Shown here piece after piece: positions 1,104-60,699 of a stretch of 64,000 nt of DNA (the stretch's first letter is position 1; each line of letters starts with the position of its first letter). The notes under the pieces are model-generated. The model saw nothing but the letters and a program-made list of their open reading frames with translations. It was not told the DNA's origin and searched no databases. A program made the translations under genes and the position numbers. Source of the DNA: Malassezia japonica (lineage: Eukaryota > Basidiomycota > Malasseziomycetes > Malasseziales > Malasseziaceae); assembly GCF_029542785.1 (NCBI RefSeq), contig NC_083374.1:310001-374000 (forward strand). Direction: 5' to 3'.

Positions 1104-2085
1104 ATGGCCTCGAAGCGGATGCGGGTGCGTAGCGCGACTGACGCAGGGCCTTGCCATCTCGCGCCCGATCCTCATTGGGTCGACCGCGACGCCGCTCACT
1201 CCCGAGGAGCGCCTCAGTGCGCCGCCCGACCACACGCACCGCTGGACGGTCGCGGTGCGCAGCGCGGCCTCGGCGCCGCTTGCGACGTGGTCTGCCGACA
1301 AGAACGACGCGCAGCCGAATGCCACGATCGGGACACGCTTGCGGGACAGCGAGGTGGACCTGCACAAGGCGGTCGGCAACAAGGACGACCTGTCCTACTT
1401 TATCAAGCGCGTCCAGTTCCGCTTGCACGAGACCTACGCACAGCCTACACGAAGTACGTCACGACGCTCACCAGACATCGACCGCTCGCCGTTTAGCGTG
1501 ACCGAGACAGGATGGGGCGAGTTTGAGATCCAGATCAAGATCTTCTTTGTGCCAGAGGCGGGGGAGAAGCCGCTGACGATCCTCCACCACCTCAAGCTGC
1601 ACCCTTGGCCGAGCGGGCCGGTGGGCACGACGGTGCCGCCGCCCGAGGCGCCGGCCGACGGCACGGCGCCGCCGCCGCCGCCGCCGCTTCCGCCGGCGGT
1701 GCACTCGTGGCAGTACGAAGAGATCGTGTTTCCGGAACCGCTCGAGGCGTTCTACGAGATCCTCGTGGCGAATCCCCCGACGCCGTGGCCCGCAACGTCG
1801 GCGCAGGCATTTGCCGACGCGGCAGACTACGAGGCATACTGCAAGGCCCGCGACGCGGGCGAGGACGCCAAGGCGCCGCACCCCGTGCACACGCCGAGCG
1901 GCCACCTCTTTGAGGCGCTCTCGCTCGAGGCGCAGCGTGCCGAGGCCGATCGCATCGACCTGGCGCGCGCCAACGCCGTGCACCAGCTCGACGCGGACCG
2001 CGAGAAGCTGATCCAGACCGAAAAGCTCCTGCGCGACGCTCGCACGCAACTCGCTACGCTAGAACGCCCGTCATACCCTTCATAG
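1104..2085 (+). CDS. YAF9: YEATS-domain protein Yaf9, SWR1/NuA4 subunit
   Basis: Three exons (1104-1124, 1147-1453, 1475-2085) encode 312 residues. The introns are 22 nt (1125-1146) and 21 nt (1454-1474). Splicing restores the family N-terminus MASKRMRGLAISRPILIGS and the run PTRNIDRSPF, which leads into the YEATS signature FSVTETGWGEFE. The YEATS domain (about residues 8-150) is known to read acylated histone H3 lysines. Yaf9 is a shared subunit of SWR1 (H2A.Z deposition) and NuA4 (histone acetylation). A proline-rich linker follows, then a C-terminal coiled coil (about 265-310) typical of Yaf9/GAS41. Retaining the 21-nt intron would add seven residues without a stop. The stop codon abuts that of PSY2 on the other strand. 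Confidence 0.93.
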
Positions 2086-4581
2086 CTACGGACTGGATCG
2101 CCCTTCGGCCCGCTGGCGCCCTTCGCTCGAGAGGCGCAAGGCAAGCTTCTTTTCCCCGTGCGCTTTGGGCGCCGTGTGCGAACGCTTTGCGAGGCGGCCG
2201 AGCATCTCGTCGTCGTCGTCTTCGTCGTCAGGCACGCGGCGGCGCACGCGATCGACGCTGCGGTCGAGCGCCTCGCTCGCCTCCTCGTCCTCGTCGCCGT
2301 AGGGCACCAAGGGCTGCGCCTCTTCCGACGCAAAGTAGTTCTCCTCGTCCTGCGCGTCGTCTTCCGGCTCGGGCGTGGGCGCACGCTCCTCGTGCTCCAC
2401 CGCGAGACCCGCAAAGCACGCCTGCAGCGACGGAATACGCCTAAGACGCTGCATCTGCTCGCTGTGCTCCTCGACGAGGTGCTGGATCAGGACACGGATG
2501 CCTTCTTTGCGCAGCTGCTCAAAGAACCCGAGGCACGCACTGCTCACGAGGTTGTCACGCGGCGCCTCGCGCTCGAGCAGGTCCAGCAGCTCTTGTAACA
2601 CGCCGATCGTGATTAGGTGGCGGTGCATAAACTGGTTGCTGCTCCCGAGGCACGCACGGAATACGCGAAGCGCCGCGAGGCGCATCGGCTTCTCGCGCGC
2701 ATGCAACAGCGCGCCGACGTGCTTTCCAATCTCGGAAGTGAGCATATAGTACTGGCTCCGGAAGGAGTGCTGCGACACAATATAGCACAGCAGCTCACAC
2801 AGGTGCGTGTACAGCGCAATATCTTCCTGCGAGAAGCGCGAAAGGGGGCCGTCCAGCGAAGCAAACGTCGGCAGGCGCTCCAGCGGCTTGAAGAGCTGCA
2901 CAATGTCGCTCTTGTACAGCCACGTGAGGAAACGCTCAGGGTCGCTGCTGGCTTTCAGCATACTCCCTTGCGCCATGGGCGAGTTGGAAATCCCTTCGAG
3001 GCTCACGTCAAGCAGCGCACGAATCGCCTCGGCAATCTGCCCTTTAAAGCCCAAGTTGCCGTGCTGTAGCAGCAGGTCCAGGAGGAGACGCATCAGAGGG
3101 CGCGTCGGCTTCGCGACTTGCGCCAGGATATACGCACGCACACTGTTTGCATCGTACTCGATCGTCGCCGTGAGGATCTCGGCAGCGGCATTGCGAATCG
3201 CCGGCTCGGGCTGTACGAGCGCGTACTCGACCACCTGCAGCAAATCGCGGTCGACCAAGCTGCGAAAGAGGCTCATGCGGCCGGGCAGCTGAATTTGCTT
3301 GGCCATCGAACAGAGCTGCTGCAGAAAAAGCACCGCCTCGTGCTTGCGGCCAGGCACCTCGACCGCCTGCACAATCTCGCGGATCTGGTCGAGACACTGC
3401 TTGTTGCCGACGCAGTAATTTACAATATCACTCTGGTAGAAAAAGACGAGGGAGGAGATCATGGACAGTGTCGCATCGTCCAGCAATCGTGCAAGCACCA
3501 CATCCTTTAGGTAAATCAAACGATATGTGTCCAGAATCTTGGTCACCACATTCGGGTCCTCGAACTCGACGACCTGGTGAAAGTGGGCGTGGTGCTGCAA
3601 ATAGTCGCGGTAGGACGCTTTGAGTCTGGGGAACTCGGGGTTGTATTCAAGCATGCCGATCGCGGCAAAAAACACATCATCTTCCAGCAGATACTCAATA
3701 ATGACATTGTCGTTCATTGTCAAAACCACCTTCATAATATCGTACAGCTGATGCAAGTGGGGGAGCAGCTCTTGTTCTTCAGCCGCGTGGAACTGGGGTA
3801 TCAGTTTTCGGATATAGTCTTCGTTCAACAGCCACTCGACCACCTTTTCGCGGCGCAGCGGACTCTGCGCGCACGCTTCGCGCAGCTCCTGCTCGATCGT
3901 GCCGAGATTGTCGAGCATCGGCGCAGGAAGGCGAAATGGCGGAGCGTGCATCTCGTCGGCTTCGTCGGAATACGGGCCGCGCATGCTGTGCCGCCGGTCC
4001 TCGGCAGAGTACGAGGTGTCTTTGTTGAGCATAAAGTGCAGCTGCACCTCGGTCAAAAAGTCCCATACTTCGTTGCATCCTTCCGGCTCCTGAAAAGAGA
4101 GCGCCAGATCAGAGCCGTCGGGTTCCGTCCACACCACAAGTGTATCTTGTTGCCGCTGGTACACGTCATCCTTTACCACCGGAGAGCACAGGAGGATATC
4201 ATCGCTGGCAAGCACCGGGCTGATCACCAGCATGTACTTTTGGGGTGGATCGTCGCCCTCCCCCGTCGGCTCGACAGCGTCTGCAACGTCACCGAGCGAC
4301 TCGCACAACTCTTCTTTGCGGACAACAAGCAGCGCCTCGTCTTTGGCCTCGTCATACACGCCGGCACAGTAACCAGTGCCACGATCGACCCAAGCTTGGT
4401 CTTCAAGGATATATAACTTGACACGTCGCCCAGTACCACATTGGTGGTACTGTCCACGGGTAACAGTTGACGAAAAGAGGAGCGTACCTTGAGCCTCGTC
4501 CGCGTCAGCCCCCCCCAAAGAGCGAGAAGCGTCGTCCACCGGGGCGCTAGGCGAGCTTTCCCCTGTCGCCGTGGCTTCCAT
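2086..4581 (-). CDS. PSY2: Protein phosphatase 4 regulatory subunit 3 (Psy2/SMEK type)
   Basis: A single exon of 831 residues starts at the ATG at 4581. The N-terminus carries a PH/EVH1-like domain (RRVKLYILEDQAWVDRGTGY, about 50-180). It is followed by the SMK-1 domain (about 230-430, with LNEDYIRKLIPQF and the motif NVVTKILDTYRLIYLKDVVL) and a long armadillo-like helical body. The C-terminus is acidic with a basic patch (VDRVRRRVPDDEDDDDEM). The length fits fungal Psy2. In other fungi it targets the Pph3-Psy4 phosphatase to phospho-H2A and Rad53 during checkpoint recovery. Its stop directly abuts that of YAF9 (TAGCTA, 2083-2088). Upstream is the 511-bp region shared with glutamine synthetase. 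Confidence 0.93.
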   Translation of the reverse strand: MEATATGESSPSAPVDDASRSLGGADADEAQGTLLFSSTVTRGQYHQCGTGRRVKLYILEDQAWVDRGTGYCAGVYDEAKDEALLVVRKEELCESLGDVADAVEPTGEGDDPPQKYMLVISPVLASDDILLCSPVVKDDVYQRQQDTLVVWTEPDGSDLALSFQEPEGCNEVWDFLTEVQLHFMLNKDTSYSAEDRRHSMRGPYSDEADEMHAPPFRLPAPMLDNLGTIEQELREACAQSPLRREKVVEWLLNEDYIRKLIPQFHAAEEQELLPHLHQLYDIMKVVLTMNDNVIIEYLLEDDVFFAAIGMLEYNPEFPRLKASYRDYLQHHAHFHQVVEFEDPNVVTKILDTYRLIYLKDVVLARLLDDATLSMISSLVFFYQSDIVNYCVGNKQCLDQIREIVQAVEVPGRKHEAVLFLQQLCSMAKQIQLPGRMSLFRSLVDRDLLQVVEYALVQPEPAIRNAAAEILTATIEYDANSVRAYILAQVAKPTRPLMRLLLDLLLQHGNLGFKGQIAEAIRALLDVSLEGISNSPMAQGSMLKASSDPERFLTWLYKSDIVQLFKPLERLPTFASLDGPLSRFSQEDIALYTHLCELLCYIVSQHSFRSQYYMLTSEIGKHVGALLHAREKPMRLAALRVFRACLGSSNQFMHRHLITIGVLQELLDLLEREAPRDNLVSSACLGFFEQLRKEGIRVLIQHLVEEHSEQMQRLRRIPSLQACFAGLAVEHEERAPTPEPEDDAQDEENYFASEEAQPLVPYGDEDEEASEALDRSVDRVRRRVPDDEDDDDEMLGRLAKRSHTAPKAHGEKKLALRLSSEGRQRAEGRSSP

Positions 4582-5092: not shown

Positions 5093-6238
5093 ATGTCGTC
5101 CGTGACGAAGAACCCTGGTATGTATTCCCAGGGAATTTTTTACTGACCATTAGCGCTTCTTGCTCCTTACCTCGACCTTCCCCAGGGTGGTACGTATTGC
5201 GATCCCGCCGATCAACAGGAATACTAACACGATCCAGGCAAGGTCGCTGCCGAGTACGTTTGGCTCGACGCCGAGGGCCACCCGCGTGCCAAGACCACTA
5301 CCCTTGACGGCCCCGTCCGCTCGCTCGATGATCTGAAGGAGTGGAACTTTGACGGTTCGTCGACCGGCCAGGCTCCGGGCGGCAACTCGGACGTTTACCT
5401 CCGTCCCGTGTCGTACTACCCCGACCCCTTCCGCGGCGGCGACAACGTGCTTGTCCTTGCCGAGTGCTACAACAATGACGGCACCCCTAACAAGTCCAAC
5501 TACCGCCACAACGCTGCCAAGGTCTTTGAGCAGTGCAAGGACGATCAGTGCTGGTTCGGCATTGAGCAGGAGTACTCGCTCATGGGCGAGGACGGCCGCC
5601 CGTACGGCTGGCCCGTTGGCGGTTTCCCTGGTCCCCAGGGCCCTTACTACTGTGGTGTTGGTGCCGGCCGCGTGGTCGGCCGTGACCTCGTCGAGGCCCA
5701 CTACCGCGCCTGCCTGTACGCCGGCATCAAGCACTCGGGTATCAACGCCGAGGTCATGCCCTCGCAGTGGGAGTTCCAGGTTGGCCCGTGCCTTGGCATT
5801 GAGATGGGCGACCACCTCACCATTGCCCGCTACCTGCTCTTCCGCGTTGCCGAGGAGTGGGGCGTCCGCGTCTCGTTCCACCCCAAGGCTGTGCCGGGTG
5901 ACTGGAACGGTGCCGGCTGCCACACCAACTTCTCGACCATTGGCATGCGCGAGGAGGGTGGCATGAAGGTCATTGAGAGCGCCATTGAGAAGATGAGCAA
6001 GCGCCACACTGAGCACATTGCTGTTTACGGTGACGACAACGAGCTCCGTCTCACCGGTCGGCATGAGACCGGTCACATTGGCGAGTTCTCCGCTGGTGTG
6101 GCCAACCGTGGCGCGAGCATCCGTATCCCCCGCCACGTCGCTGCGCAGGGCAAGGGCTACCTCGAGGACCGCCGCCCGGCCTCGAACATCGACCCGTACC
6201 GCGTCACTGGCATCATTGCCGAGACTGTGTGCCTGTAA
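5093..6238 (+). CDS. GLN1: Glutamine synthetase (EC 6.3.1.2)
   Basis: Three exons (5093-5117, 5154-5189, 5238-6238) encode 353 residues, the usual fungal length. The introns are 36 nt (5118-5153) and 48 nt (5190-5237, with a perfect TACTAAC branch point), longer than nearly all others here. The 36-nt middle exon encodes [12 protein letters not shown], which matches the conserved fungal N-terminus and settles the model. Visible motifs are the beta-grasp signature NFDGSST, the metal and glutamate ligands in FGIEQEYSL, the ATP-binding loop [10 protein letters not shown] (about residue 244), and [16 protein letters not shown] near the C-terminus. The enzyme makes glutamine from glutamate, ammonia and ATP in the cytosol. 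Codon use is strongly biased to C/G-ending codons, suggesting high expression. The upstream GATA cluster points to nitrogen control. Confidence 0.96.
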
Positions 6239-10903: not shown

Positions 10904-11462
10904 TCCCCACGAGCGAGCGCCTGCTTCAAGGCCTGCGCCTCGTTGCCATAGTGCTTGTGGCGCTTCTGCTCAAACTCGGTGTGCTTCGCTTCGTCGCCGT
11001 CCGTCGTGGGGTACGTCGGCGTGGGCGATGCAATCGTCGGCGACGACTCGACACGCTCTTTCAGCTGGCGGTACGACCCAGAAATCGCCGCATTCGCCTT
11101 GGTGTTGGCCTCGACCTGGTCGAGATCGAGCGAGGCGCTGGTCGCCACCGGCCGCGCGTCCTTGTCCGTGTCGAGGTCGAATTCTGTGTGAACCAGAAGA
11201 ACACCTACCCTCTTCCTCCATCGGGGGTGCCGACGCGCTGTGCACGAACGGCGTCTTGGGCTCGTCAATGGTCATGCGGGCCGCCGCATTGTCGCGCTCC
11301 TCTTGGTTCAGAGAGAGGTTTGATTCGTCCCACTGAAGCCTGCGTCAGACTCACCACGCACCTGTTGTCCACATTTGCTCCGTCGCTTGGCTTGATGTTC
11401 TTCAGAATGCCGTGGGGCTTGGGCGCCTGGGCGCTCGGCACCGGTTCGCTCTTGGGCGGCAT
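10900..11462 (-). CDS. GLC8: PP1 regulatory protein Glc8 / inhibitor-2 family
   Basis: Three exons (11362-11462, 11209-11339, 10900-11183) encode 171 residues from the ATG at 11462. The introns are 22 nt (11340-11361) and 25 nt (11184-11208). Splicing assembles the inhibitor-2 hallmarks in order: PHGILKNI, the motif LQWDESNLSL, then EPKTPFV, which holds the Thr-Pro phosphorylation site. The C-terminal helix FEQKRHKHYGNEAQALKQA follows. Glc8/I-2 binds and modulates the PP1 catalytic subunit, affecting glycogen metabolism and mitosis. It lies 57 bp downstream of MES1 in the same direction and is convergent with NTE1, sharing the last bases. Without intron removal none of the motifs are joined, so the model is well supported. 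Confidence 0.9.
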
Positions 11463-11519
11463 CGTCGCGCACGGCCGGGGCGATCGGGCCCAATGCGATC
11501 GGGTCTCCACAACTATGTC

Positions 11520-13708: not shown

Positions 13709-15947
13709 ATGACGTACCGGCCAGGCACCGCGCCGATCCAGCCGGCCTATGTGCTCGAGGCGTGGCCTGCCAAGAGCGGGTCGCTCCTCGGCGAGGACAA
13801 GAAGGGCGAGGGAGAAGAAAGCGCAGAAAACGCACGCGCCAGCGACGCTCCGCAGGCCGCCGAAGCGTCGCACGACAGCCATGTGGAGTCGAATGCAAGC
13901 TCTGAGCGGGGGCAGGATCCGCCGCGCAAGCGCGCGCGGGGGCAGAACAAGGGGCGCGTGTTTACCAAGACGGACGATCTGATTGGAATCTGCAGCCAGG
14001 TTTCGCGCGGCCTGCCGTGCAAGTTTGGCGACGACTGCCGCTTTGGGCACGATCTGTGCCTCTATCTTACGCACAAACCCCGCGACCTCCCCCATCTGGT
14101 GCCGGCCGAGGGCGAGGCACGCGCGCAGTGGCTCGAGCGGGTGTACGAGCTTGCAGCGCAGTCGGAAAAACCCGAGGCGCCCAAGCCGGACGGCGACGCG
14201 GTCCAGAGCTGCGTCGACTTTTCCACGCAGTGCCCCTACTATGCCGAGCGGGGCGCGTGCCCGGCCGGGTGGAAGTGCCGCTTCCTCGGCGCGCACGTAA
14301 AGCGCGTCAGCCCCTCGCGCGCGGTCGTGCCAGAGGCGGGCGGCGAGCGCGGCACGGGCCTCGAGCTGGTCACAGACGCCGCGCGCGTCGCGCAGTGGGA
14401 GGCGCGGCCGAGGGCTGTTACCAACACGGCGCACCCCGCCAACGACGAGGTGAACTGGCTCTCGCCAGAGAGCGCCAAGCTGCTGCGTTCCGGCAAGTAC
14501 AAATACGAAAAAGCGCCCGCGATCCTTGCGCGTCTCAAGCAAGAGACCAACGAGCTTGGGGCGCTGCCGCCGTACGACGCCGCGTCGTCCAAGATTGGGC
14601 ACGGTCCGCTGGTCATTGACTATGCGTATGAAGCGGCGCTCGCAAAAGTGCAGGCGCAAGCCCCCCGCGGCGCTGCGGCGACCGAAGAGGCGCTCGAAGA
14701 GCATGCGAATGCGCTGCGCAACGTGCGCCCGAGTGATGCGGCGGCCGACACGGCGCGTGTGCGCCCCGCCGAGAAGCGGCGCTTGCAGTGGCGTGGCGAG
14801 CTGTACCTTGCGCCGCTCACGACGACCGGCAACCTGCCGTTTCGCCGCGTGTGCTCGGCGTTTGGCTCAGACATTCACTGCGGCGAGATGGGCCTCGCCG
14901 AGTCCTTTTCGTCCGGGCACGCCTCGGAGTGGAGCCTCACTCGCCGCTGGGACGGCGAGCGGATCTTTGGCACGCAGGTCTGTGGCTCGAAGCCCGAGTT
15001 CCTCGTGCCTGCCGCCGAGGCGCTCGCGCGCGAGGTCGGGAGCGGCCTCGACTTTGTCGATGTGAACTGCGGGTGCCCCATCGACCTCGTGTTCAACAAA
15101 GGTGCCGGCTCTGCGCTCCTCGACCATGCAAACAAGCTCGGGCGGATCGTGCGCGGGATGTCGGCGGCACTCGGCGAGATCCCCTTGACGATCAAGCTGC
15201 GCACCGGCACGTCTGCCAAGCAAACCACGCACAAGATCTTTGCGCGCGCGCAGACCGAGTGGGGCGCCGGCGCCGTGACGCTGCACGGCCGCTCGCGCAA
15301 GCAGCGGTACAAGAACGACGCGGACTGGGACTATATTGGGACGTGCGCCTCGGCGCTGCGCGACTCGGTCGTGCACTGGAACGAGGACCAACGCACGGCC
15401 GACGAGCCGGAAATGGTCCCGGTCCCGATCTATGGCAACGGCGACGTGTACGGCCACCACGACTACTACGAGCACATCGACAAGACCGGCGTGGATGGCG
15501 AGATGATTGCACGCGGCGCGCTGATCAAGCCGTGGATCTTTACCGAGATCAAGGAGCGCCGCGACTGGGACATTTCCGCGCGCGAGCGCCTCGACATTGT
15601 GCGCCAGTTTGCCGACTATGGCCTCACGCACTGGGGCGCCGACACGCAAGGCGTAAACACGACGCGCCGCTTCCTGTGCGAGATGCTCTCGTTCACGCAC
15701 CGCTACGTCCCGATCGGCATCCTCGAGCATGTGCCGGTCCGCATGAACGACCGCCCGCCGCCTTTTGGCGGGCGCGACGCGCTCGAGACGCTGCTCAGCA
15801 GCCCCAGCGCCAGCGACTGGGTGCGCATCTCGGAGATGTTCCTCGGCAAAGCGCCGGACAATTGGAGCTTCCTACGTACGTATCCCTTCTCACCCAGCGA
15901 AACACAAGTCCAACTCCTTCGCAGAGACCGACTCCCTCCAAGGCTAA
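13709..15947 (+). CDS. DUS3: tRNA-dihydrouridine(47) synthase Dus3
   Basis: Two exons (13709-15875, 15898-15947) with a 22-nt intron encode 738 residues. Splicing replaces a run-on frame with the conserved tail [21 protein letters not shown] and a stop. Two CCCH zinc fingers lie in the N-terminal third ([20 protein letters not shown] and [20 protein letters not shown]). The FMN-binding TIM barrel follows from about residue 350, with the active-site region [20 protein letters not shown] and the HGRSRKQRY phosphate loop. Dus3 reduces uridine 47 in the tRNA variable loop. The alanine-rich linker before the barrel is unremarkable. POL31 begins only 38 bp downstream. Retaining the DUS3 intron would keep the frame open into POL31. 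Confidence 0.95.
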
Positions 15948-15985: not shown

Positions 15986-17394
15986 ATGGCCGTTCGTAGC
16001 GCGAGCCAATTTGACCCCCTCGAGGATCTCGCGGGGCCGCTGCGTGTGCCGGCCGCCGAGCGGACGTACGGCCGCCAGTTTGCGCAGGTGTACGACTACC
16101 GCCTTGCGGTGCTGCGGCGCCGCGTGCTTGCGTCGGCGACCGAGGCGTATGGCGAAAAGCCGCCGTACGTCGAGCGCATCCTCGATATTCCGCCCAAGCA
16201 GCTGTGCTTTGTGATTGGCACGGTGTATGCGAACCTGAAACTGAAGCCGGATGTGCTCCAGGAGATTGCACGCGAGGTACGTCGTCGCGCTCACCCAGCA
16301 ATCCATCGCGCCGCAGCCGGTGCCGACGTACGTCGACCCCGGCCACGACGAGCTGTACATTGAGGACCAGAGCGGGCGCGTGCGCATTGTCGGGCCCAAG
16401 GTTGCGTCGGGGACGCCGCTCGCGGCCAAGTGCGTCACGGGCGCGGTCATTGGCGTGTTTGGCGCCGAGACGCCGGACGGCGACCTGGAAGTCGCCGACA
16501 TTGCGCTGCCGGGCCCCCCAGCCCCCCTGCCGCTGGAGCCGGCGAGGGTCAAGGAGGAGGGCGAGGCGTACATTGTGCTCGCGAGCGGCCTCCAGATGGG
16601 CAGCGCGGACGCGGCCAACGACATGCACTACGACCTCCTCCAAGAGTGGCTTTCCGGCGAGCTCGGCAGCGCGTCCGAGCGCGCAGACACGGCCCGCATC
16701 TCGAGCATGGTGATTGCGGGCAACTCGGTAAGCAAAGCAAGCTGGGTACCGCGTGAGACGTCCGTGATGGAAAAGCGGCAGCAGCCGGCGGCGCTGACGC
16801 ACTCGCCGTTTGCCGAGCTCGATCCGATGCTTGCGTCGCTCTGTGCGACGCTCGACGCGGTGGTGCTTATGCCGGGCGCGCAGGACCCCAGCAGCGCGAC
16901 GCTGCCGCAGCAGCCGCTGCTGCGTGGCCTGTTCCCCCGCGCCGCGCAGTGGGACAATCTGCACTGCCTGACGAATCCCGCGTGGCTCGGGCTGCACAAC
17001 AGGACGATCCTGAGCTCGTCGGGGCAGAATGTCGACGATCTCGTCAAGTACCTGCCCGAGGGCAATGCGTCGCCCGCGCTGCAGATGGCGCTCGCTACGC
17101 TGCAGTGGTCGCACGTCGCGCCGACGGCGCCAGACACGCTGTGTACGTCGCGAAGCTGACCCAGGGTGTTATCCGTTCAAGTCGACCGACCCCTTTGTGG
17201 TGCGTGCCGCGCCGGATCTATACGTCATCGGCAACCAGGCCAAGTACGAAACGGCGACGTTCGAGGCGCGCACGGCCGACGGCTTTCCTCACACCATCCG
17301 CGTGGTCCTCGTGCCAGAGTTTGCGACGAGCCACGAGGTGGTGCTGGTCAACATGGCGACGCTCGAGCCCCGTATCGTATCCTTCGCGGCGTAG
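15986..17394 (+). CDS. POL31: DNA polymerase delta small subunit (Pol31/POLD2)
   Basis: Three exons (15986-16276, 16299-17142, 17165-17394) with two 22-nt introns encode 454 residues. The N-terminal OB fold (about 30-170) includes [26 protein letters not shown] and [13 protein letters not shown]. It is followed by the inactivated calcineurin-like phosphoesterase fold of B-subunits (LASGLQMGS, then [20 protein letters not shown]). Removing the second intron restores [16 protein letters not shown], a strongly conserved segment. The protein bridges the catalytic subunit Pol3 and Pol32 in replicative DNA polymerase delta. The start codon is 38 bp after the DUS3 stop, with an ACGCGT site in the gap. 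The stop is 5 bp from the convergent PCI-protein stop. Confidence 0.95.
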
Positions 17395-45385: not shown

Positions 45386-45386
45386 A

Positions 45387-45738
45387 CTAGATTAACCGTT
45401 CCTTGTCCGTCGCGCGCCAGTTGGCCATCCGCGCCGCCACCGGCACCTCGTTGATAATCGACTTGGCCGGCGCACTCGGTTTGTGTAACGACTCGCGCAG
45501 CTCCTCTGTCGTCCGTGGATGCCGCTGGGTGAGTAAAGATGCGTACGAATTCGGTCTCGGGGGGCGTAAAGCGGTCGCGGATCTGGGTCAGAGAAAATAC
45601 GTACCGGCCGCACATGCTTGTCGTACCACGCGGGGTCACCAAAGTAGATCATGAATCCCAGAGGAAACAAGAGATAGCTGCATTAGCACAAACGACCTAC
45701 AAGCCGAAGCGAAACACCTCCATGTTAGGGCCCGCCAT
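45387..45738 (-). CDS. PET100: Cytochrome c oxidase assembly protein Pet100
   Basis: Four exons (45701-45738, 45605-45677, 45547-45582, 45387-45524) with introns of 23, 22 and 22 nt (45678-45700, 45583-45604, 45525-45546) encode 94 residues. The start MAGPNMEVFRFGFYLLFPLG followed by YFGDPAWYDKHV is the Pet100 signature: a short matrix end, one membrane segment, then GDPxWY. The first two introns interrupt this signature, so the model is firm. Pet100 is an inner-membrane chaperone for a complex IV assembly intermediate. It is one of the most fragmented genes here for its size (three introns in 285 coding bases). It is convergent with IES6 and divergent from LTN1 (53 bp). Confidence 0.92.
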
Positions 45739-50909: not shown

Positions 50910-51818
50910 GGCCAGAGCATTCACCTGCTCCGGCGATAGGCCGTCGAGGCTGCGTCAGAAAAGAAACGTACCGCTCGAGAAGATAGTCGACCTCGACCTC
51001 CTTGGTCATGGGAATAATAAACTCTTGATAGAGCCGCACGACCTCGGCCGTCTGGATCTTGCGTACCTTCTCCTTGTTGTGCTCGGGCGCGGCCTGGTCG
51101 AGGTCCTGGCCGTAGATCTCTGCCTTTTGTGCGACGCGTTTCAGCAGCACCGCTTCGACAGCGGGCTTGGTAATCAGGCCAGCCAGCGCCTCGCGGTTGC
51201 GCGAGTGGATGTGGGGAATGAACGCAGCCGGGTCGTCGCGGAACTTGCTCTCGGACACAAACATGCCAAAGTGGATGCGGCGGTTGATCGCGCTGAGCGC
51301 CTCGACGTCGCCGATCGCACTCGAGCCGTACTGCCGGTCGTCGTCGATACCGCCCTCACGCAGCGTGATGCGGGGCACAATCTCTTCCGTGTAGAACTTT
51401 AGCACGTCCTTCGACACGTTGACGTGGTGGGGATGCAAGAGGTCGGGGTAGTCGACCGGCGTCAAGATCGGCTTCGGCATCGTGCTCACGTCGGTGAACG
51501 CGTATTCATCGGGGCTGGGTCAGTAGAGCGACATACGCAGTCCAGCGGCCGAGCTTGGCTTCATTAGTAGATTGACGTACCATGACTACTTTCGGTCTCT
51601 TTCAGGAGCCACGCGAGCCACGAGCCGCTCCAGTTCTCCTTGTCCTTGAGCTCGGGGAACGCGCCGTCCTCGTACATGCGTTTGTTGTGCGCAAACTGCG
51701 TGCGCTCAATAAGGCGGAACACGATCGTGTCCTCCATGCGCTGCAGCGTGGCGCGGATCTTGTTCAGCGAGAGAATATCCTCGCTGCTCGCATTGTGAAA
51801 ATTGATCGAGTCCGACAT
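50889..51818 (-). CDS. ARO7: Chorismate mutase
   Basis: Four exons (51581-51818, 51537-51558, 50972-51514, 50889-50949) with three 22-nt introns encode 287 residues. The all-helical AroQ fold shows RATLQRMEDTIVFRLIERTQ (active-site Arg), then PDEYAFTDV and PKPILTPVDYP joined by splicing. The catalytic C-terminal helix is TKEVEVDYLLERLDGLSPEQ. Exon 2 is only 22 nt. Intron 1 (51559-51580) ends in AAG instead of the usual YAG. The enzyme converts chorismate to prephenate for Phe and Tyr synthesis and in yeasts is activated by Trp and inhibited by Tyr. Removing the last intron shifts the end from a run-on frame to ...LASKNGTA and a stop inside LTN1's coding region. Confidence 0.93.
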
Positions 51819-51881
51819 GCTGGTCGGTGGTGTGGAGAAGCGGGGCTGTGGAGGCGGCAATTACGTTTGCCCTGTACAATG

Positions 51882-54544
51882 CTATTTGGCGGTAAAGAAC
51901 CAGTTGCCGGTCGGCTTTGGCGCGGCGTTGGCAGCAGCTGGTGGTGGGAGACCGCCGCCACGGAGGGGCTTGGCGATACGGCCGAACGGTAATGTGCCTT
52001 TAGGGTCGGAGCTGAGCGCAGAGACTTCGGGAAGCCCGTTCCGCGACGTGTACAGCTCGTCTTCGAGCGTTTGGATGCGCTCGTTGCGTGCTGCAAGTTT
52101 CTTTTCGGCAGCAGATACATCCTGCTTTAGCGTCGTGTTCTGCTCGACGAGTCGGTGCTGCACATTCGCGAGCTGCTCGAGATGGCGCTCGAGCATGCCC
52201 ATCTTCTTTTGCTGGGCGCGCAGATGCAGACTCTGGAGCAGCATGTTGTACTGGTCCTGCATTTCCTCGAGAGCCATCTCCATCGACACAACCTTTTCGC
52301 TGCGCTCGCGGAGGCCGTGCATGAGCTGCTGTTTCATACGTTCATACTCGCGCAGGCGCATCGTAATCAGCTCGCGCGACTTTTCCATTTGGGTCGACGC
52401 GTCGACCAGGCGCCGAATGACGGCCGGATCGACATTGCCTTGGGCCGTGAGCGTATCAGTGAGAAGCGACATCGCCTCGCGCTGTTCTTCGTGCGAGGTA
52501 CGCAGATCGTCGAGCGTGCCTTTGAGCCCTTCGGTCTCTTCGGAGCGGATGGAAAGCAGGTGCTCCAGGTGCGAGACTTCGGTGCTCGTGTTGAGCTGTG
52601 TGGCGGTCGTGTGCTCTTCCAGGAGCTGGCGCAGCGACGCGAGCTGGCCGCCCGTCTCGTCGCCGAGGCGCAAGCCATGCTCGAGGGCACCAATGTGGTC
52701 GGTAATCAGGTCGTAGCGCTGCTGCAGCGCAGCGTAGCGGTCGCCCAGCGCCGCTTTCTGCTGTTGCAGGACGACCATCTCTTGTGCGGTAATACGCGCA
52801 GACTGCATCTGGCTAGAGAGCGCGACCTGCTCCTGGATGATGTTGTCGCGCAGGCGGCGCACGTCGTCCATAGGCACCGGCGCATTTTCGCTGCTGGCCT
52901 GCTCAAGGCGACCGACAATCGCAAGCATCGCATCCACGCCGGGGCGGTGCTCGAGTGCCAGATCCGAGAGCATCGTATCCAGGCGTTCTGTGTACTCGGG
53001 CGCCGGCTGTGCAGTCGATGCTTCCGTCGGCGTCTCTTTTGGCGTCGGCACATTGGCGCGTGCTTTCTCGGCGGCCCAGTCGGCCTGGATCGCATCACGC
53101 TGTGCCATGGCCTCGTCGCGCGCATAGACCAGCTCGTCGGCTTGCAGACGCAGCGCACTCTGCTCGGTTTCGAGCGCACGTACGCGCGTCGAGGCCGCGA
53201 GTTCTTGCTCGCGTACGGAAGCAAGCTCTGTACGCAACGCCGCGAGCGTCGCGTCGCGATCGTCGTCCGGCAGGGGATCGCGCATCGGCGACGCGTTGCG
53301 GACCGGCGACGCGTTCTTGGACGGAGAAGGTAGCCGCGGCTGGAACGATGCCCATCTTGACTCGGGCACCGACCGTCCTGCCCGCCACTCGGTGAGCTCG
53401 GCCTGGAGCGCCTCCGCGAGGCGTTTGTGGGCCGCTGCCTGGGCGGTCGCCTTGCGCAGCTGTGCGCGCAGTTCCTCGGGCGACAGCTCTGCATTGACGC
53501 GTGCATTGTTCTGGATCGATTTGGCGCGTACACCGAACCGGAGCGTTGATAATGTCTCTTCGGCATTGTAGGCGACTGGCGAGCAGTTGACGATGAGCGT
53601 CGTGCGCGAATTTCCACCGAGCGACTCTTGGAGGATGCGCGTGAGCTTCGAGTCACGGTATGGAACGTGCGACGACTTGCCGTCAGTAAGGGCATTGATC
53701 ACCATGCCGAGCGCGCTGAGACTCTTGTTGATCTTTTTCGCCTCTTCGAGCGTCTGTCCACTTGCGCCTGTCTTTCCGACCTTTTCAGAGCCAGCCAGGT
53801 CCACGAGGTACAGCGAGCCCGACTTGGTCGTGCCATTCTCCGTGTTGCGCTGCTGGATAGTAAATAAGAAGATGCTGTGCGAGCGCGAGGATTCCGTGTT
53901 CATCTTGGTCGACGCGACCGCGCGATTCAGCTGGCCTTGCTCCAGGATACTAAACACCTCGTCCGCATTGCTCACATAGTACTCCGAGAGCCCCTTAACG
54001 TAGACGCCCCGCGTGCGATCCTCGTGCACCTGGAGGTTATCGAATGCGGGGACGAGCAAGTCGCGAACGCGTTCCATATAAATCTCCATGTACGAGACCT
54101 TGACGAGGTACTCGAGCGTCGGTGGGCTCGACACGATCCGCTCAAAGATCTGCTCCGTGATGCGCGGCGTGATACCCCGCAGCTCCTCGTCGGCAATGTC
54201 GGGTCCCTGGGTGAGACGCGAGACGTACCATCATGGTATGCGTCTTTCCCGAGCCCGTCTGTCCGTAGGCAAAAATCGTGCCATTGTACCCATTCAGGAC
54301 ATCTGGATAAGCGACACTACGCACCAGTCACGGTCTGTTTGATGCTGTACTCAAACACGTCGACCTGACGCGAGTCCATCGGAAACACGCGATCAAACGT
54401 AAAGGAGCCGCTTTCGCCAAGCCGCGGCAGCCGCACCGTCTGCAAGTCTTCCACGGCAACCACGACGTCGGCGTCCGCCGCCGTGCCCCCCTGCGGTACC
54501 GCCGCCGGGCGGAAACGCGACACGACCTTGACGTTGGCCGCCAT
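51882..54544 (-). CDS. KIN1: Conventional kinesin heavy chain (kinesin-1)
   Basis: Three exons (54325-54544, 54229-54302, 51882-54206) with 22-nt introns at 54303-54324 and 54207-54228 encode 872 residues. The motor domain shows [15 protein letters not shown] (P-loop, about residue 87), [11 protein letters not shown] (switch I) and [15 protein letters not shown] (switch II), and ends near SIQNNARVN. Long coiled-coil segments follow (about 350-800). The tail contains [12 protein letters not shown], the IAK autoinhibition motif found only in conventional kinesins. It carries vesicles and other cargo towards microtubule plus ends. The 74-nt second exon holds the P-loop. It is divergent from URA3 by 42 bp, with ARO7 63 bp downstream. 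Gene naming differs among fungi. Confidence 0.93.
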
Positions 54545-54586
54545 AGCGCACAGACAAGATGACTAAGCAGGTTTCCTCCGACGGCG

Positions 54587-55478
54587 ATGGCGGCGCAGGC
54601 AACGTACGAATCGCGCGCAGCCAAGCACCCCAACTCGTGCGCCAAACAGCTTCTCGAGTCGATTGCCCAGAAGCAGTCGAACCTCTGTGTGAGCGTCGAC
54701 GTGACGCGCAAGGAGGATCTCCTCGAAATTGTCGACACGGTCGGACCTTTTGTGGCGCTCGTCAAGACGCACATTGATATTGTCGAGGACTTTGACTGGG
54801 ACCTGATTGAGCAGCTGTCTGCTCTGAGCGTGAAGCACAAGTTCCTCATCTTTGAGGACCGCAAGTTTGCCGACATCGGTACGTTGCCACACTGACCCAG
54901 GAAACACCGTGAGCCTGCAGTACTCGGCCGGTGTGCACCGCATTGCGCACTGGTCGCACCTCACGAATGCGCACCTGATCCCCGGCCCGGGTATCATTTC
55001 CGGCCTTGCATCGGTTGGCACGTCGCTGCAGCGCGGCCTGCTTTTGCTCGCGGAAATGAGCACCAAGGGCAGCCTCACGACCGGCGCATACACCACGGCC
55101 AACGTCAAGGCGGCTATGGAGGACGAGAGCGACTTTGTGATGGGCTTCATTGCGATGCACCGCGTGCACGAGGACCCCGCGCACATCCCGGAAGGCGCGA
55201 CCGACGCGCAAAAGGCCAAGGACCTCTTGATCCTTACGCCGGGCGTCGGCCTCGACGTGACCGGGGACGGCAAGGGCCAGCAGTACCGCACGCCCCACCA
55301 GGTCGTGCACGACAGTGGCTGCGACGTGATGATTGTCGGCCGCGGGATCTACAGTGCGATGCTCGCCAAGGACGTGGAGCGCGAAGAGGCGCTCGTCCAA
55401 GTGCGCCAGCAGGCCCAGCGCTACCGTGACGCGGGCTGGCAGGCGTACCTTGCGCGCATTGGCGCTGCTCGTACGTAG
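54587..55478 (+). CDS. URA3: Orotidine 5'-phosphate decarboxylase
   Basis: Two exons (54587-54878, 54901-55478) with a 22-nt intron encode 289 residues. The TIM barrel shows LCVSVDVT and VKTHIDIV. The catalytic signature [12 protein letters not shown] is completed by splicing within [13 protein letters not shown] and the C-terminal phosphate loop [10 protein letters not shown] follow. It decarboxylates OMP to UMP, the last step of pyrimidine synthesis. An upstream ATG at 54559 in another frame opens a 72-codon ORF that overlaps the start. The final codons CGT-ACG-TAG contain a GTACGT donor-like sequence, which could splice to NTH1. Confidence 0.95.
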
Positions 55479-55599
55479 GCCTTAGAGTCAAGTCTGACAC
55501 ACAGCCCGACGATCGACGCGGCTCGGCGTGCCGCTCACGCCTCCGAGGGGGCTGCACACCAAGGCGAAGCGCACCGTGCCCAAGGTCGAGGAGGAGCAG

Positions 55600-56654
55600 A
55601 TGACCGACGTGAAGGAGGAGGCGACACTCGAGCTGCCGGACGCGAGTCCGTCCAAGGCGTCGCCCCTTAAAAAGATCAAGATGGAGCTGACCGAGGACGA
55701 GGTGCGCAAGGTCAAAGTGCCGCGCAACTGGCGCGACGTGTACGAGCTCATGGCCAAGCAGCGTGCCGAGATCATCACCCCGGTGGACACGATGGGGTGC
55801 GAAGAGAACGGACAGGAGAACCGCCGCGCGGATCGCGGCCGCATCGGGCCGGACGGCAAGCAAGAGAGCCAGGAGGAGAGCGAGAAGCGGCTAAGGTTCA
55901 CGACGCTCGTGAGCCTGATGCTCAGCTCACAGACCAAAGACCCGGTGACGGCAGACGCGGTGCACAAACTGCAGACGACGCTGGCCAACGGCCTCAATCT
56001 CCAGTCTGTCCTCGACGCCTCCGACGACGAGATCCAGGCGTGTATTGCCAAGGTGGGCTTCTTTCGGCGAAAGACGGAGTACCTGCGCCGCGTTGCTGTC
56101 ATTCTCAAAGAGCAGCACCATGGCGACGTGCCGCAGACGATCGACGAACTATGCGCGCTTCCCGGTGTCGGGCCCAAAATGGCCTTTTTGCAGATGCAGA
56201 GCATGGGGTTCAACGTCGGTATCGGCGTCGACACGCACGTCCACCGCATCTCGAACCGCCTGGGGTGGTGCAAGACCAAGACGCCGGAGCAGACGCGCCT
56301 CGCGCTCCAGAGCTGGCTCCCGAAAGAGGTACGTGCTTGCACTTACGCAGCTTCACACAGTCATTAACAAGCAAATGGTCGGCTTCGGCCAAGTCGTCTG
56401 CGTGCCGGTGGGGCCGCGGTGCGAGTACGTTGCGCTACTGACCTAGTCTGTGCTACATCGGCAGGGCACGGCGATGCCCGTCCTACCACAAAGTCGACGC
56501 CAAGTCCCTTGTAAAGCGTGTCCCAGTCCAGTACTGGGACGGGACGGTCGACGCGGGCTATGGACGTGTGCCAAAGGTGAAGCAGGAAGCCATCGACGCC
56601 GCCCCGGAAGACAAGAAACTCTCCGTAGCCAAAGAGGAGCCCCTCGACTGGTAG
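55600..56654 (+). CDS. NTH1: Endonuclease III-type DNA glycosylase/AP lyase (Nth1/Ntg)
   Basis: Three exons (55600-56328, 56351-56424, 56447-56654) with two 22-nt introns encode 336 residues from the first in-frame ATG at 55600. The open frame extends upstream to 55498 with coding-like sequence (LTPPRGLHTKAKRTVPKVEE), so the true N-terminus may be longer and lie on another exon. The HhH-GPD core shows TLVSLMLSSQTKD and ELCALPGVGPKMA. The catalytic Asp lies in VGIGVDTHVHRI, with the lysine region just before. The iron-sulfur cysteines CVPVGPRC-DLC-YIGRARRC have the usual C-x6-C-x2-C spacing but seven residues before the last Cys instead of five. It removes oxidised pyrimidines in base excision repair. 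Confidence 0.88.
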
Positions 56655-56680
56655 TGGAGGTTGAAAAATTGGGCTCTTTT

Positions 56681-58515
56681 ATGCACGTCCCGACGACGAT
56701 GATGCGCGAGGCGAAAGGAGCCGACCGGCCGCGCGAACGCGCGCGGCGCCCTGAGAAAGCCAAAGAGGCCGAACAAGAGGCACCCTCGGCGCCTGCTGCC
56801 GCAGAAGAGGCGCCGGATGCCGAAGACAGCATCCTGAACCGCACCGCCTTGTCGCTCGCCGGCCATGCATTGCCGCCGCGCAAGGCCGCGGCCAAGACCC
56901 TCGCGCAGTTTACGCAGCTGCGCAGGCTCGACCTCTCCGATATGCAGGCTTCGGACGATGCGCCAAACGGACTCGAGGACCTGCGCATCCTCACGCAGGC
57001 CGTGTCGCTCAGCAAGAAACACGCCAAGAAGCACGGCTCGACGGCGCTTGCCGACCGCCTTACGTGGCTGAACGTATCAAATAACCCGGAGCTGGGACAG
57101 AGAGACTATGCGCTCGACGGAATCGACGAGCTTGCAGCGCTGCACGGTACGTATTTGATCTGACGCAGTGTTCAACGCATCGCACTGCAGCCTGCGTAGC
57201 CTTCCGGCGGGTCTCTCGGCCTTGTCGCAGCTCAAGGCGCTGGTCGTCTCGCACAATGCCATCGCGGGCCTCCCGCAGGTGATGCCGCATATGCCGGAGC
57301 TCAACACGCTCGTCCTCTCGAACAATGCGCTGACGACGCTGCCCAAGACGCTGCCTGCGTCGCTCCCGGCGCTCAAGAAGCTCAGCATCAGCCATAACCA
57401 GCTTACAGACGGCGGCGCACTGCCGGACTTTAGCGTATGTGCGCACCTGCGCGAGGTGCGTCTGTGCGGAAACAAGGCACTGCAGCGCCTTCCGGCGCAT
57501 ATCCAGAAGTGGGGCAAAGGCGTCGACGGCGGCGCGCCGGGTCTCGCTCTCCTCGACGTGAGCGACTGTGGCCTCGATGACTTTGCGAGCATTGCGCCGC
57601 TGCTCAAGGCATCGGATGCATCGCGCCGTGGTTTGAGTAACCTGTGCTTGAAAGGAAACGGCGTCGCGGCCGAGGAGGAATACCAAGACAAGGTACGTAC
57701 CGCGACTAACTCAGATCCTCGACGCATACCCCGGCCTGCGTATTCTTGATAATGTGCGTCTGCACCCCAAAAAGAGCCAGGCAGAAGAGCAGGAGGCGCC
57801 CAAGGACGAGCCTGTCGAGCCCAGGAAAGGCGAGCGGAAAAGCAAGGCCCCCGAGGATGCCCAGGCCGAGCGCTCCGAGCCGACCGAGCGCAAGAAGCCC
57901 AAGAAGGACCGCTTCTTTCAGACCGAGCCAGTCCAAGCTCCGGAAAAGCCAGAGCAGGCCGAGCCGAAGCGCAAGCGCAAGGACCGTGCCGAGGAGCCTG
58001 CGCGTGAGACGGAAAAAAAGGCACGCAAGCACGCCGAGCCTGCGCCCGAGGCCACGCCCGAGCCTGAGCCTGCCGATGCCGCGGAAGTCGGAAAAAAGGT
58101 GCGCAAGCGCAGCGGGCGTGGCCCCAAGAAGCACCGCGGCGAGGATGCGGAGCATGCGCGTCTCCTTGCGCGCGCCGGCCCTGCGCCGGACGAGCCGATG
58201 GACAAACCGATGGACGAGCCAATGGACGAGCCCGAAGTGGATGCCCCCGCTGCCTCTGAGCCGCCTAGCACACGCTCGAAAAAGACACGCCGCAAGAAGA
58301 AGGAGGCGCACACTGTCGAGCTTACGATGGACGTTCCTGCGCCCGAGGCTGCTCCTGCGCCCCCGCCCCCCCGTGCGCCGTCGCCGGCACCCGAGCCCGT
58401 GGCGGCCAAGCCGGACACGGGCGTGGTCGACGTCGTCGAGGTGCGCAGCAAGCCCCGCACGGCACCGCTGAGCATGCTGGCGCGTCGTGACGATGATGAT
58501 CTAGGTAGTTGGTAG
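56681..58515 (+). CDS. Leucine-rich repeat protein with long charged tail, unknown
   Basis: Three exons (56681-57146, 57169-57692, 57715-58515) with two 22-nt introns encode 596 residues. Residues about 60-340 hold leucine-rich repeats of SDS22/typical kind (LRRLDLSDM, LTWLNVSNNPEL, LKALVVSHNAIAGLP, LNTLVLSNNALTTLP, LKKLSISHNQLT), ending in a cap-like YPGLRILDN. The C-terminal roughly 230 residues are Lys/Glu/Pro-rich with basic clusters suited to nuclear or nucleolar localisation. They include the four-residue repeat DEPM/DKPM (about 58192-58230). I do not recognise a named orthologue. PP1 or RNA-associated roles are possible for such layouts but unproven. The stop abuts the ALG8 stop (TAGCTA, 58513-58518). 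Confidence 0.78.
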
Positions 58516-60069
58516 CTATGCGTCCTTTACCTTGTCCATGAACGGGTCCTGCCAGTAGCTGATCGAGAGGCGCAGCCAGACCCACATCACGCCGAGCGCG
58601 CAGTAGACACTGGTCGCCATCAAAGGAAGGAACTCGATGCGTGGCGACGCAAGGGTCGGTGCCGCCGCAACCGCGAGCGGCCACACGACATTCGTGACGA
58701 GGGCCAAGAGCGCGAGGCCGTACATGTACTGCGTCTCGAAAAAGTGCACAATCTCGCCGAGGTTCGTCGGCATCGGGCGCAGGACGCGGCGGTGCAATGC
58801 GTGGCGCACGACCGCGAACCAGATCGCGCTGTACACGAGCTTGACCGGCGTCTCGAGCGGCGTAAAGAGCAGCGGAAAGAGCGACACGATCGACACGGCC
58901 GACAGCAGCTCCCAGATGCGCAGGTAGGCGTAGCCGTGCGCGGCGACGAGGCTGAGCGGTACCACGGCGAGGAGGATCGCCTTTTCGTGGACGTGCCATC
59001 CGACGGCAAACGACGTGAGGCCACAAAGCGCGACGCACAGCACGAGCGCGCGGTACGTCGGCCGCTGCCACAGGCGCACCGCGTACAGCACCATGCAAGC
59101 AAGAGCGAGCAGGAAGCACGTCGGCGGCCGCACGTCGGGCAGCACGCCAAACGCGGTATCCCCGACGATGCCACGCGACGCCGACACGACGCCCGACTTG
59201 CCGGTCGCAAAGAGCAGGACGCGATCGAGCGCCGTGTAGAGCGCCCAGACGTTCGGCGCCCAGTACGCATGGATCAGGCCGCGGTGGAACGGAAAGAGGC
59301 GCGCATACATGGCGCTCATCACGCTCGCGGTGCCCTCGCCGTGCACTGCGTCGAGTGCAAACGGCGCAATGCTCAGCACAAACGGTGCGATCGTCGCGGC
59401 GCCGAGCTGTGCGGTCCGTGCGAAGGCCGCGGCCCACGCCTTGCCCGACGTCGGCAGCGTCGGGAAGAGGTACGCGCGGAAAAGGTACACGGTCCACGCC
59501 GGTGCCACGTACAGATAAATGTGCTTCAGGTTGAGCAACGACGAAAAGAGCGCGGCACACAGCAGCATTCGGTCGACGCGTGCGGCCCACAGCGACCAGA
59601 GCATCACGCCAAAGAGCACGCCATTGTACTGAAAGTGGATGTGGTCGACCATCAGCAGGCCGGGGTGTAGCAGCACGCTCAGCAGCAGCACGCGGTTCGC
59701 GCTGTGCTCCGGCGTGCACCGCGCGTGCGCGTAGAGCGCCGCGGCAAGCACGAGCTCGGTCACGAGCACGGTCGCGCGCATGTACGCTTTGCACGGCCAT
59801 GCCGCATAGCCCAGCGCGTGCAGGTCGACAATCTGCTTGTCGACCCACGCCGCGGGCTGCGCCAGGAGCCACGAGAGGTAGGCAAAGAACGGCGGATAAT
59901 CAAGCGTCCACTCGGACGTCGCGTCGACGTACCACTCCCGCAGCGGCAGGCTGTACGTCACCGCAAACCAGTTGCGGTGGACTTCCATGTCGGTCGAGTG
60001 GTACGCCGGCCATAGCAGCACTTTCGTGAGCGTGCCGAGCACCAGCGCCGTCACGCCCGGCGCGTCCAT
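58516..60069 (-). CDS. ALG8: Dolichyl-P-Glc:Glc1Man9GlcNAc2-PP-dolichol glucosyltransferase Alg8
   Basis: A single exon of 517 residues. The lumenal loop near the N-terminus reads STDMEVHRNWFAVTYSLPLR followed by TSEWTLDYPPFFAY, the ALG6/ALG8 GT57 signature; the form EVHRNWFA and the DYPPFFAYLSWLL continuation favour ALG8. Further conserved blocks are DHIHFQYNGVLFG, NLKHIYLYVAPA and FPFHRGLIHAYWAPNVWALY. About 11-12 hydrophobic segments give the usual ER multi-spanning layout. It adds the second glucose to the lipid-linked oligosaccharide for N-glycosylation. The start is 35 bp from the divergent SGT1 start. Confidence 0.92.
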   Translation of the reverse strand: MDAPGVTALVLGTLTKVLLWPAYHSTDMEVHRNWFAVTYSLPLREWYVDATSEWTLDYPPFFAYLSWLLAQPAAWVDKQIVDLHALGYAAWPCKAYMRATVLVTELVLAAALYAHARCTPEHSANRVLLLSVLLHPGLLMVDHIHFQYNGVLFGVMLWSLWAARVDRMLLCAALFSSLLNLKHIYLYVAPAWTVYLFRAYLFPTLPTSGKAWAAAFARTAQLGAATIAPFVLSIAPFALDAVHGEGTASVMSAMYARLFPFHRGLIHAYWAPNVWALYTALDRVLLFATGKSGVVSASRGIVGDTAFGVLPDVRPPTCFLLALACMVLYAVRLWQRPTYRALVLCVALCGLTSFAVGWHVHEKAILLAVVPLSLVAAHGYAYLRIWELLSAVSIVSLFPLLFTPLETPVKLVYSAIWFAVVRHALHRRVLRPMPTNLGEIVHFFETQYMYGLALLALVTNVVWPLAVAAAPTLASPRIEFLPLMATSVYCALGVMWVWLRLSISYWQDPFMDKVKDA

Positions 60070-60104
60070 CGTGGAAGGGGCTCGTGCGTTGTCGGCCGAA
60101 GTTG

Positions 60105-60699
60105 ATGGTGCGCCACGACTTTTACCAGACCGACGCGCAGGCGGTTGTGTCGGTGTACGCCAAGGGCGCAGCGCGCGACGACGTGCAGGTCACGGCAGAC
60201 GGGCAAAAGGTACGTGGTACGGCTTATGCAGCTCTCGGTCGTGTTTACTGGCGGTACTCACGAGGGGACGCGCCTTGATCTGACGCTGTACGGAGCCGTG
60301 GAGGTGGCCGGCGTGCGTGTGCTCGCGACCAAGGTCGAGATCACGCTCCATAAAAAGGTGCCAGCACAGTGGCCGACACTCGAGCAGAGCGGAGCGCCGG
60401 CCGTGCCAGCCGTGCCAGTCGCGCCGGCGGCTGCGCCGCAGGAAGCGCCGCGGCGCCCGCGGTCCAAGTGGGACGCGCTCCAAGTTGACGACGAGGAGCC
60501 CGTATCCGGCGAGGCGGAGCTCAATGCCTTTTTCAAAAAGCTGTATGCGGATGCGGATGATGACACGCGCCGCGCGATGGTTAAGAGTTTCCAAGAGTCG
60601 AATGGGACGTCGCTGAGCACCAACTGGGCCGAGGTCGGCAAGAAGAAGGTCGAGACGCGTGCGCCGTCCGGTATGGAGCCCCGCAAATACGATGCGTAG
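60105..60699 (+). CDS. SGT1: Sgt1 co-chaperone, short form with CS and SGS domains
   Basis: Two exons (60105-60209, 60232-60699) with a 22-nt intron encode 190 residues. The CS domain begins at once (MVRHDFYQTDAQAVVSVYAK) and continues after the intron (LSVVFTGG..., VLATKVEITLHKK). The SGS domain follows a Pro/Ala linker (KWDALQVDDEE, then ELNAFFKKLYADADDDTRRA and SNGTSLSTNWAEVGKKKVE). Sgt1 couples Hsp90 to SCF ubiquitin ligases and kinetochore assembly. The N-terminal TPR domain present in plant, animal and Saccharomyces Sgt1 is absent. The frame upstream of the ATG is only about 20 codons to a GTG, and ALG8 starts 35 bp away, so there is no room for it locally. Confidence 0.9.

Follow-up and report, generated by a model that had tools for sequence, protein, structure and literature searches.

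The 64-kb stretch of the Malassezia japonica genome analysed here (positions 310001-374000 of contig C5, 64% G+C; hereafter, the window) carries a class of segments exactly 22 nucleotides (nt) long that interrupt its genes. A first-pass annotation of this DNA had described them as the dominant class of introns. We confirm the segment class in the window, and 22 nt was the dominant intron length in the stretches and patterns examined. The segments look like U2-type introns of a fungus, as that annotation had proposed: judged by their letters, they have GT...AG ends and a branch motif able to pair with U2. We consider it probable (roughly 80%) that they are U2-type spliceosomal introns whose size has shrunk roughly to the minimum the spliceosome tolerates. 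This minimal form would comprise GTACGT, seven free nt, the branch site CTNAY, one free nt and YAG. The putative branch A, named by its motif, is 17 nt from the first base in most of these introns and 5 nt from the last. Seventeen nt would be the steric floor below which U6 and U2 could not hold the 5' splice site (5'SS) and the branch site at the same time. Genome compaction would hold most introns at this minimum, and their constant length would reflect a pile-up at the smallest tolerated spacing.

Motif scans covered the genome (8,433,779 bases in 9 contigs), with the reversed pattern as a control for chance. The fixed 22-nt pattern GTRNGT-N7-CTNAY-N-YAG gave 3,112 matches, against 9 for the control. 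The exact pattern GTACGT-N6..10-CTGACCCAG was matched 280 times and its reversal 0 times, and GTRNGT-N5..12-CTRACNYAG, which spans lengths of 20 to 27 nt, gave 1,878 matches against 19. Among the first 100 places listed for the last pattern (all on contig C1, plus strand), 86 were 22 nt long, 1 was 21 nt and 13 were 23 to 27 nt, with one 26-nt place overlapping a 22-nt one.

Gene models gave the same picture. A home-made, two-strand gene finder was trained and run on the same 274 kb, consisting of the window and 21 further stretches of 10 kb each (L009-L029). The first run required only GTNNGT...YAG and a length of 12 to 150 nt, with neither a branch rule nor a length prior. It called 115 introns, of which 63 were 22 nt long, and all 63 had CTNAY at positions 14 to 18, even though this was not required. 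Eight decoy motif pairs given the same score yielded 31 to 101 calls each, of which 0 or 1 was 22 nt long. Because decoys yield so many calls, many of the other lengths in the first run are presumably noise. Addition of the branch rule in a second run gave 156 genes, 76 of them with introns, and 141 introns in total: 87 of 22 nt, 4 shorter and 50 longer, the longer calls including false ones, as the decoys show. The finder also fuses some adjacent introns into a single call.

Removal of the segments restores reading frames. The 22-nt motif was matched 93 times in the 274 kb, compared with 0 for the control. The frame test was restricted to the 49 of these 93 matches with a coding score above 4 on both sides, and used a codon model trained on the same stretches, which introduces a mild circularity; in all 49, the frames join only once the 22 nt are removed. 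This bears on the idea that the segments are not introns but assembly errors, programmed frameshifts or excised DNA. They are known here from DNA sequence, which leaves such an idea some room, but the in-frame joining on both strands and within conserved domains, the GT-branch-AG grammar in thousands of places and the canonical small nuclear RNA (snRNA) boxes described below leave it next to no chance of being correct.

Conserved coding sequence was likewise restored in comparisons with known proteins. The best alignments to solved structures ran without a gap over seven junctions, six of 22-nt introns and one of a 21-nt intron. Two lie in a kinesin-1 motor on the minus strand (54303-54324 and 54207-54228, the latter four residues past the P-loop; aligned to 1goj), and two in a chorismate mutase, also on the minus strand (51515-51536 and 51559-51580, the latter ending in AAG). 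A YEATS/Yaf9-like gene on the plus strand contributes the gene-model intron at 1125-1146, whose junction is crossed by a best Yaf9 alignment that begins at query 4 in exon 1, and the 21-nt intron at 1454-1474, in which the distance from 5'SS to branch A is 17 and that from A to the 3' splice site (3'SS) is 4. The seventh, at 54879-54900 on the plus strand, falls within the OMP decarboxylase motif (aligned to 3gdk). A Pfam scan of ten further proteins matched all ten to a family at an E value of 0.001 or better, the L51/S25/CI-B8 match lying under its curated cut-off and some matches not spanning the junction.

The anatomy of the class is rigid. All 87 calls of 22 nt opened with GT, followed by A at +3 in 82, C at +4 in 75, G at +5 in 87 and T at +6 in 80; the GT and AG ends are required by the gene models, which also favour some of the other letters, although the first run left the branch motif free. 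C14, T15 and A17 of the branch motif were each present in all 87, position 18 was C in 71 and T in 16, and the last three letters were (C/T)AG in 86 and AAG in 1. Phases 0, 1 and 2 were represented by 26, 35 and 21 of the 82 22-nt introns in genes lying wholly inside their stretch. C at +4 is not known to pair with either U1 or the ACAGAGA box of U6.

Two distances were measured in the 129 introns of at most 60 nt that have a branch site. From 5'SS to branch A, 91 introns had a distance of 17 nt, 2 a shorter and 36 a longer one; from branch A to the intron end, it was 5 nt in 103, shorter in 6 and longer in 20. A scan of the 274 kb that used no gene model and varied the spacer between the two motifs found a single match at N0 and another at N1, none at any of N2 to N6, 93 at N7 and 7 at N8. 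Spacers of N9 to N30 had at most 2 matches each (2 at N9) and together 14, against 7 in the control. Where frames were clear at spacers of N8 to N20, they were correct in 7 of 7 cases. With the distance from A to the end set at 4, 5 and 6, there were 2, 93 and 3 matches; at an A-to-3'SS distance of 12, there was one case with clear frames, and these did not join. In the four introns called shorter than 22 nt, A stays at 17 and only the 3' part is shorter. Because these keep A at 17, and because N2 to N6 are empty, a hard limit probably lies on the 5'SS-branch side.

The first-pass annotation had concluded that the spliceosome measures, or has adapted to, one fixed spacing. This goes too far: the sharp limit acts on one side only, on the 5'SS-branch distance, which is almost always at least 17 nt, and introns of greater length with these ends occur. 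The fall from 93 to 7 matches between 17 and 18 nt does leave room for an optimum or ruler. A true optimum, in which the 17/5 spacing is spliced best and selection holds the length at 22 nt from both sides, would explain that fall, the 2 matches at N9 and the sharp branch-to-3'SS peak at 5 nt, from which both shorter and longer distances are rare. It accounts poorly for the 23- to 27-nt places with the same ends, for the 36 introns whose branch distance exceeds 17 nt and for the in-frame cases at N8 to N20, and we think it unlikely. A physical floor accounts better than a strict ruler for a one-sided constraint.

Several observations weigh against introns shrunk to a physical floor. The step from N7 to N8 is steeper than passive accumulation at a floor would obviously give, and the tail at N9 to N30 with an exact 3' part is merely twice the control. 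Shorter spacings also occur: the single matches at N0 and N1, a 16-nt spacing in 1 of the first 100 places listed for the 20- to 27-nt pattern, and, in 2 of the 129 introns, a branch A placed at 10 or 13 nt, which we take to be mis-assigned. The first run gave one of the four sub-22-nt introns (L029, 2335-2354) a length of 23 nt, and the second-best kinesin alignment has a one-residue gap just past the second junction. Finally, we infer splicing and the branch site from the sequence, and historical shrinkage is our reading of a single genome.

A uniform length could also arise if a 22-nt mobile intron (introner-like) had recently been copied through the genome, and thousands of matches of one length are what such copying would leave. 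The mean identity between spacers (0.316) exceeds the 0.263 given by plain composition, but is not above the 0.323 expected from position-specific preferences. Moreover, 84 of the 87 spacers are distinct, and only 37 of 3,741 spacer pairs agree at 6 or 7 of the 7 positions. Sequence-similar copies were thus not found among the 87 spacers, and recent copying was rejected as highly unlikely. An ancient introner wave may be compatible with the spacer data.

The splicing machinery was searched for in the genome. U2, U6 and U5 snRNAs were found, with what we take to be the GUAGUA box of U2, the ACAGAGA box of U6 and the U5 loop all intact. U1 gave no match in an Rfam search of the genome, in which the search's controls were silent as well. 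Slu7 and Isy1 are present, as is Prp18, which is split into two pieces and has one in-frame stop in the second. A U2AF65-like protein scored 224 bits, under the NCBIfam cut-off of 310. The short 3' part raised the idea that U2AF, Slu7 or Prp18 had been lost; this was rejected, since all three are present (U2AF as the U2AF65-like protein).

In the ciliate Stentor coeruleus, the conserved plug motif of Cwc25 and the conserved N-terminus of Isy1 are described as missing (PMC9505925). A Cwc25-like protein of M. japonica, named from its Cir_N match and its start, begins MGAGDLN, a start that retains two of the three glycines that paper names. The Pfam match of Isy1 begins at profile position 1, with the N-terminus MAQNQEKA. 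A Stentor-like change of Cwc25 and Isy1 was ruled out because both N-termini look conserved, and for the same reason such a change seems unneeded for a 17-nt loop.

The spacing is difficult to reconcile with human geometry. Human extracts need about 50 nt from 5'SS to branch site, and the human B complex, in which the U6/5'SS helix spans 17 nt and the U2/branch helix 14 nt, with a gap of 15 nm, corresponds to about 52 nt (PMC6692369); the 17 nt found here are about a third of the former figure. U2AF65 needs eight or nine pyrimidines (PMC8363638), and the gap of three nt between A and AG leaves no space for a 3' pyrimidine tract. With 17 nt on one side and three on the other, neither the two extended human-type helices (U6/5'SS and U2/branch) at once nor a tract-bound U2AF could be in place on these introns. 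Shorter or successive pairings would have to serve. Because U2AF has no pyrimidine tract downstream of the branch, recognition would depend on the two rigid motifs and their spacing, and a UHM protein may perhaps replace U2AF. We would give even odds to the wider proposal that the major spliceosome routinely assembles over 17 nt with an altered A/B-complex geometry (shortened helices of U6 with the 5'SS and of U2 with the branch site, or docking one after the other), that the 3'SS is chosen without tract-bound U2AF, and that the 22-nt mode is the physical minimum. If this is true, the genome-wide 22-nt mode is a direct read-out of the physical minimum of the spliceosome in a genus with reported transformation.

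Scanned for the 22-nt class, the window gave 35 matches, spread over both strands. One (20891-20912, minus strand) is antisense to a long gene, probably a chance match, and was set aside. By our own count, the remaining 34 lie in 20 genes, which agrees with the totals of the first-pass annotation; 10 of the 34 had coordinates there to compare. Those ten segments, and its introns of 21, 23 and 25 nt (1454-1474, 45678-45700 and 11184-11208), are present as it described them. Its 36- and 48-nt introns came without coordinates; two introns of our gene model, 5118-5153 and 5190-5237, fit. A gene model or a restored frame supports 33 of the 34. The second run of the finder called 27 directly, in 16 gene models, one of which fuses two genes. 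Six (starting at 11340, 36159, 36277, 42234, 42277 and 50950) were fused or missed by the finder and gave open frames after manual removal. The last, 41324-41345 (plus strand, GTGCGC), is ambiguous: the motif is present, and the finder preferred an 82-nt intron sharing the same 3' end. A 34-nt intron of our own model (55471-55504) was discarded as a false fusion of the OMP decarboxylase gene, whose frame ends there, with its neighbour.

The other introns of the window are given here in order, with some genes named by eye, that is, by inspection of the translation with no database search. On the plus strand, the 36- and 48-nt introns above belong to a glutamine-synthetase-like gene (by eye) and have a gene model only. 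A phosphatase-inhibitor-2-like gene (by eye, minus strand) contains the 25-nt intron and 11340-11361, and manual removal of each gave an open frame; the finder missed the second. Gene models support 15876-15897 in a Dus3-like gene (by eye) and, in a gene resembling the small subunit of DNA polymerase delta, 16277-16298 and 17143-17164, whose junctions fall within PF18018 and PF04042 matches, respectively (all plus strand). Introns with gene models on the minus strand are 18537-18558 in a PCI-domain gene, whose Pfam match does not include the junction, and 30405-30426 and 31542-31563, each in a WD40 gene, the former junction lying within a beta-propeller match. On the plus strand, the L51/S25/CI-B8-like gene has gene-model introns at 32600-32621 and 32732-32753 (both GTACGC), the second with its junction within the weak Pfam match. 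A zinc-knuckle gene (by eye, minus strand) has introns at 36159-36180 and 36277-36298; manual removal gave an open frame, with CCHC knuckles in the case of the first. Also on the minus strand are gene-model introns at 36966-36987 in a carbon-nitrogen hydrolase gene (junction within a PF00795 match) and at 40107-40128 in a gene for a small Ser-rich protein (gene model only).

Further along the plus strand, the finder's long call at 42234-42298 resolves into two 22-nt introns, 42234-42255 and 42277-42298, flanking a 7-codon exon in an open frame. An inositol 5-phosphatase-like gene has gene-model introns at 43696-43717 and 43874-43895, both with junctions within a PF22669 match, and a YL1_C-domain gene has them at 45142-45163 and 45232-45253, the second within the YL1_C match. 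In a Pet100-like gene on the minus strand, 45525-45546 (GTACGC) and 45583-45604 have gene models and lie within the Pet100 match, and manual removal of the 23-nt intron at 45678-45700 lengthens the frame upstream. The chorismate mutase gene has a third intron near its C-terminus (50950-50971, minus strand), past the end of the PDB alignment, with an open frame after removal. The remaining gene-model introns are on the plus strand: 56329-56350 and 56425-56446 in an HhH-GPD glycosylase gene (Pfam name), 57147-57168 and 57693-57714 in a leucine-rich-repeat gene (by eye), and 60210-60231 in a CS/SGS-domain gene, with its junction within the CS match.

Two tiny exons lie between 22-nt introns, one of 21 nt at 42256-42276 and one of 22 nt at 51537-51558, the latter backed by the chorismate mutase alignment. 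A minor form of the 5'SS with C at +6 (GTACGC or GTGCGC) occurs in the introns starting at 32600, 32732 and 45525 and in the ambiguous one at 41324; all keep the 17/5 spacing.

The short introns have consequences for annotation: any gene caller whose lower length limit for introns exceeds 22 nt will split or shorten many genes here. The window kinesin (51885-54544) is an example: its sole exact database copy among the 120 matches listed lacks the first two exons, as expected from an open reading frame caller blind to 22-nt introns. Its closest named proteins among the matches listed are from Malassezia yamatoensis (66%) and M. vespertilionis (62%). A search for kinesin relatives in collections of genome and viral contigs gave 90 and 10 pattern stretches, respectively, none of which was confirmed.

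Two features unrelated to the introns were also noted. Among 45 convergent gene pairs in the gene models of the 274 kb, 6 have back-to-back stop codons (TAGCTA in 5, TAGTTA in 1), 5 more have 1 nt between the stops (TAGACTA in 3), and in 29 the stretch including both stops is at most 25 nt. Such stop pairs lie in the window at 2083-2088, 30264-30269, 39895-39900, 58513-58518 and 45383-45389. These pairs probably share a palindromic 3'-end signal and have overlapping transcripts. The block at 56001-60000 of the window has a strong A-over-T skew of 0.206; in other 4-kb blocks, it is at most 0.124 in size.

Thousands of introns with a 17-nt spacing occur here together with conventional-looking U2, U5 and U6 boxes and several tested factors. 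The question of the smallest intron thereby becomes open to genetics outside ciliates and nucleomorphs, and this skin yeast is a promising organism in which to ask it; a transformation system has been named for laboratory strains of M. sympodialis or M. furfur (PMC5654937).

Comparison with known systems places these introns within a recognised kind. The first-pass annotation had named nucleomorphs and some ciliates as the main known cases, which is incomplete: it omits the 23- to 25-nt type B introns of Trichomonas vaginalis (PMC12316389) and, within the genus itself, the "very short introns" noted for Malassezia (PMC7426719) and the median of 30 nt in M. restricta (PMC9241646). Annotation of M. 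restricta used minimum intron lengths of 20 and 15 nt, and the mean intron of M. globosa is given as 76 to 79 nt (PMC7426719, PMC9241646, PMC6473144, PMC4634964). The introns of Stentor (15 or 16 nt) are alike in their near-single length, near-fixed branch A, 5-nt 3' tail and conserved snRNA boxes; they differ in being shorter and AU-rich, with A at 10 and no strong branch consensus (PMC9505925). The M. japonica introns, in contrast, have strong GTACGT and CTNAY motifs and N-termini of Cwc25 and Isy1 that look conserved, and they fall outside the Stentor type, being 22 nt long with A at 17, versus 15 to 16 nt with A at 10 to 11. Trichomonas type B introns are likewise an ultra-short, uniform class alongside longer introns, but number 24 and are T-rich (PMC12316389), whereas there are thousands of matches here, with a spacer G+C of 59%. 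The fused branch/3'SS of Yarrowia, Trichomonas and Giardia shares a fixed branch-to-AG distance with the introns described here, which by the counting of that paper is 4 nt, as in Trichomonas and Giardia (PMC2483917). The fixed distance from A to the end (5 nt in 103 of 129) and the absent tract give our introns the Trichomonas-like fused arrangement. Yarrowia differs in its long introns (median 204; PMC2483917); here, the 5' side is fixed too. Paramecium, with length-constrained introns of about 25 nt (PMC5014332), and Bigelowiella, with one 18-nt intron (in PMC12316389), are similarly ultra-short, but neither is a fungus. In the open-access literature, as far as its partial coverage extends and without this being proof of absence, no 22-nt class or fixed 17-nt branch spacing was seen for Malassezia. 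Ultra-short uniform introns are thus already known as a kind, and the 22-nt Malassezia class with its 17-nt spacing appears to be new.

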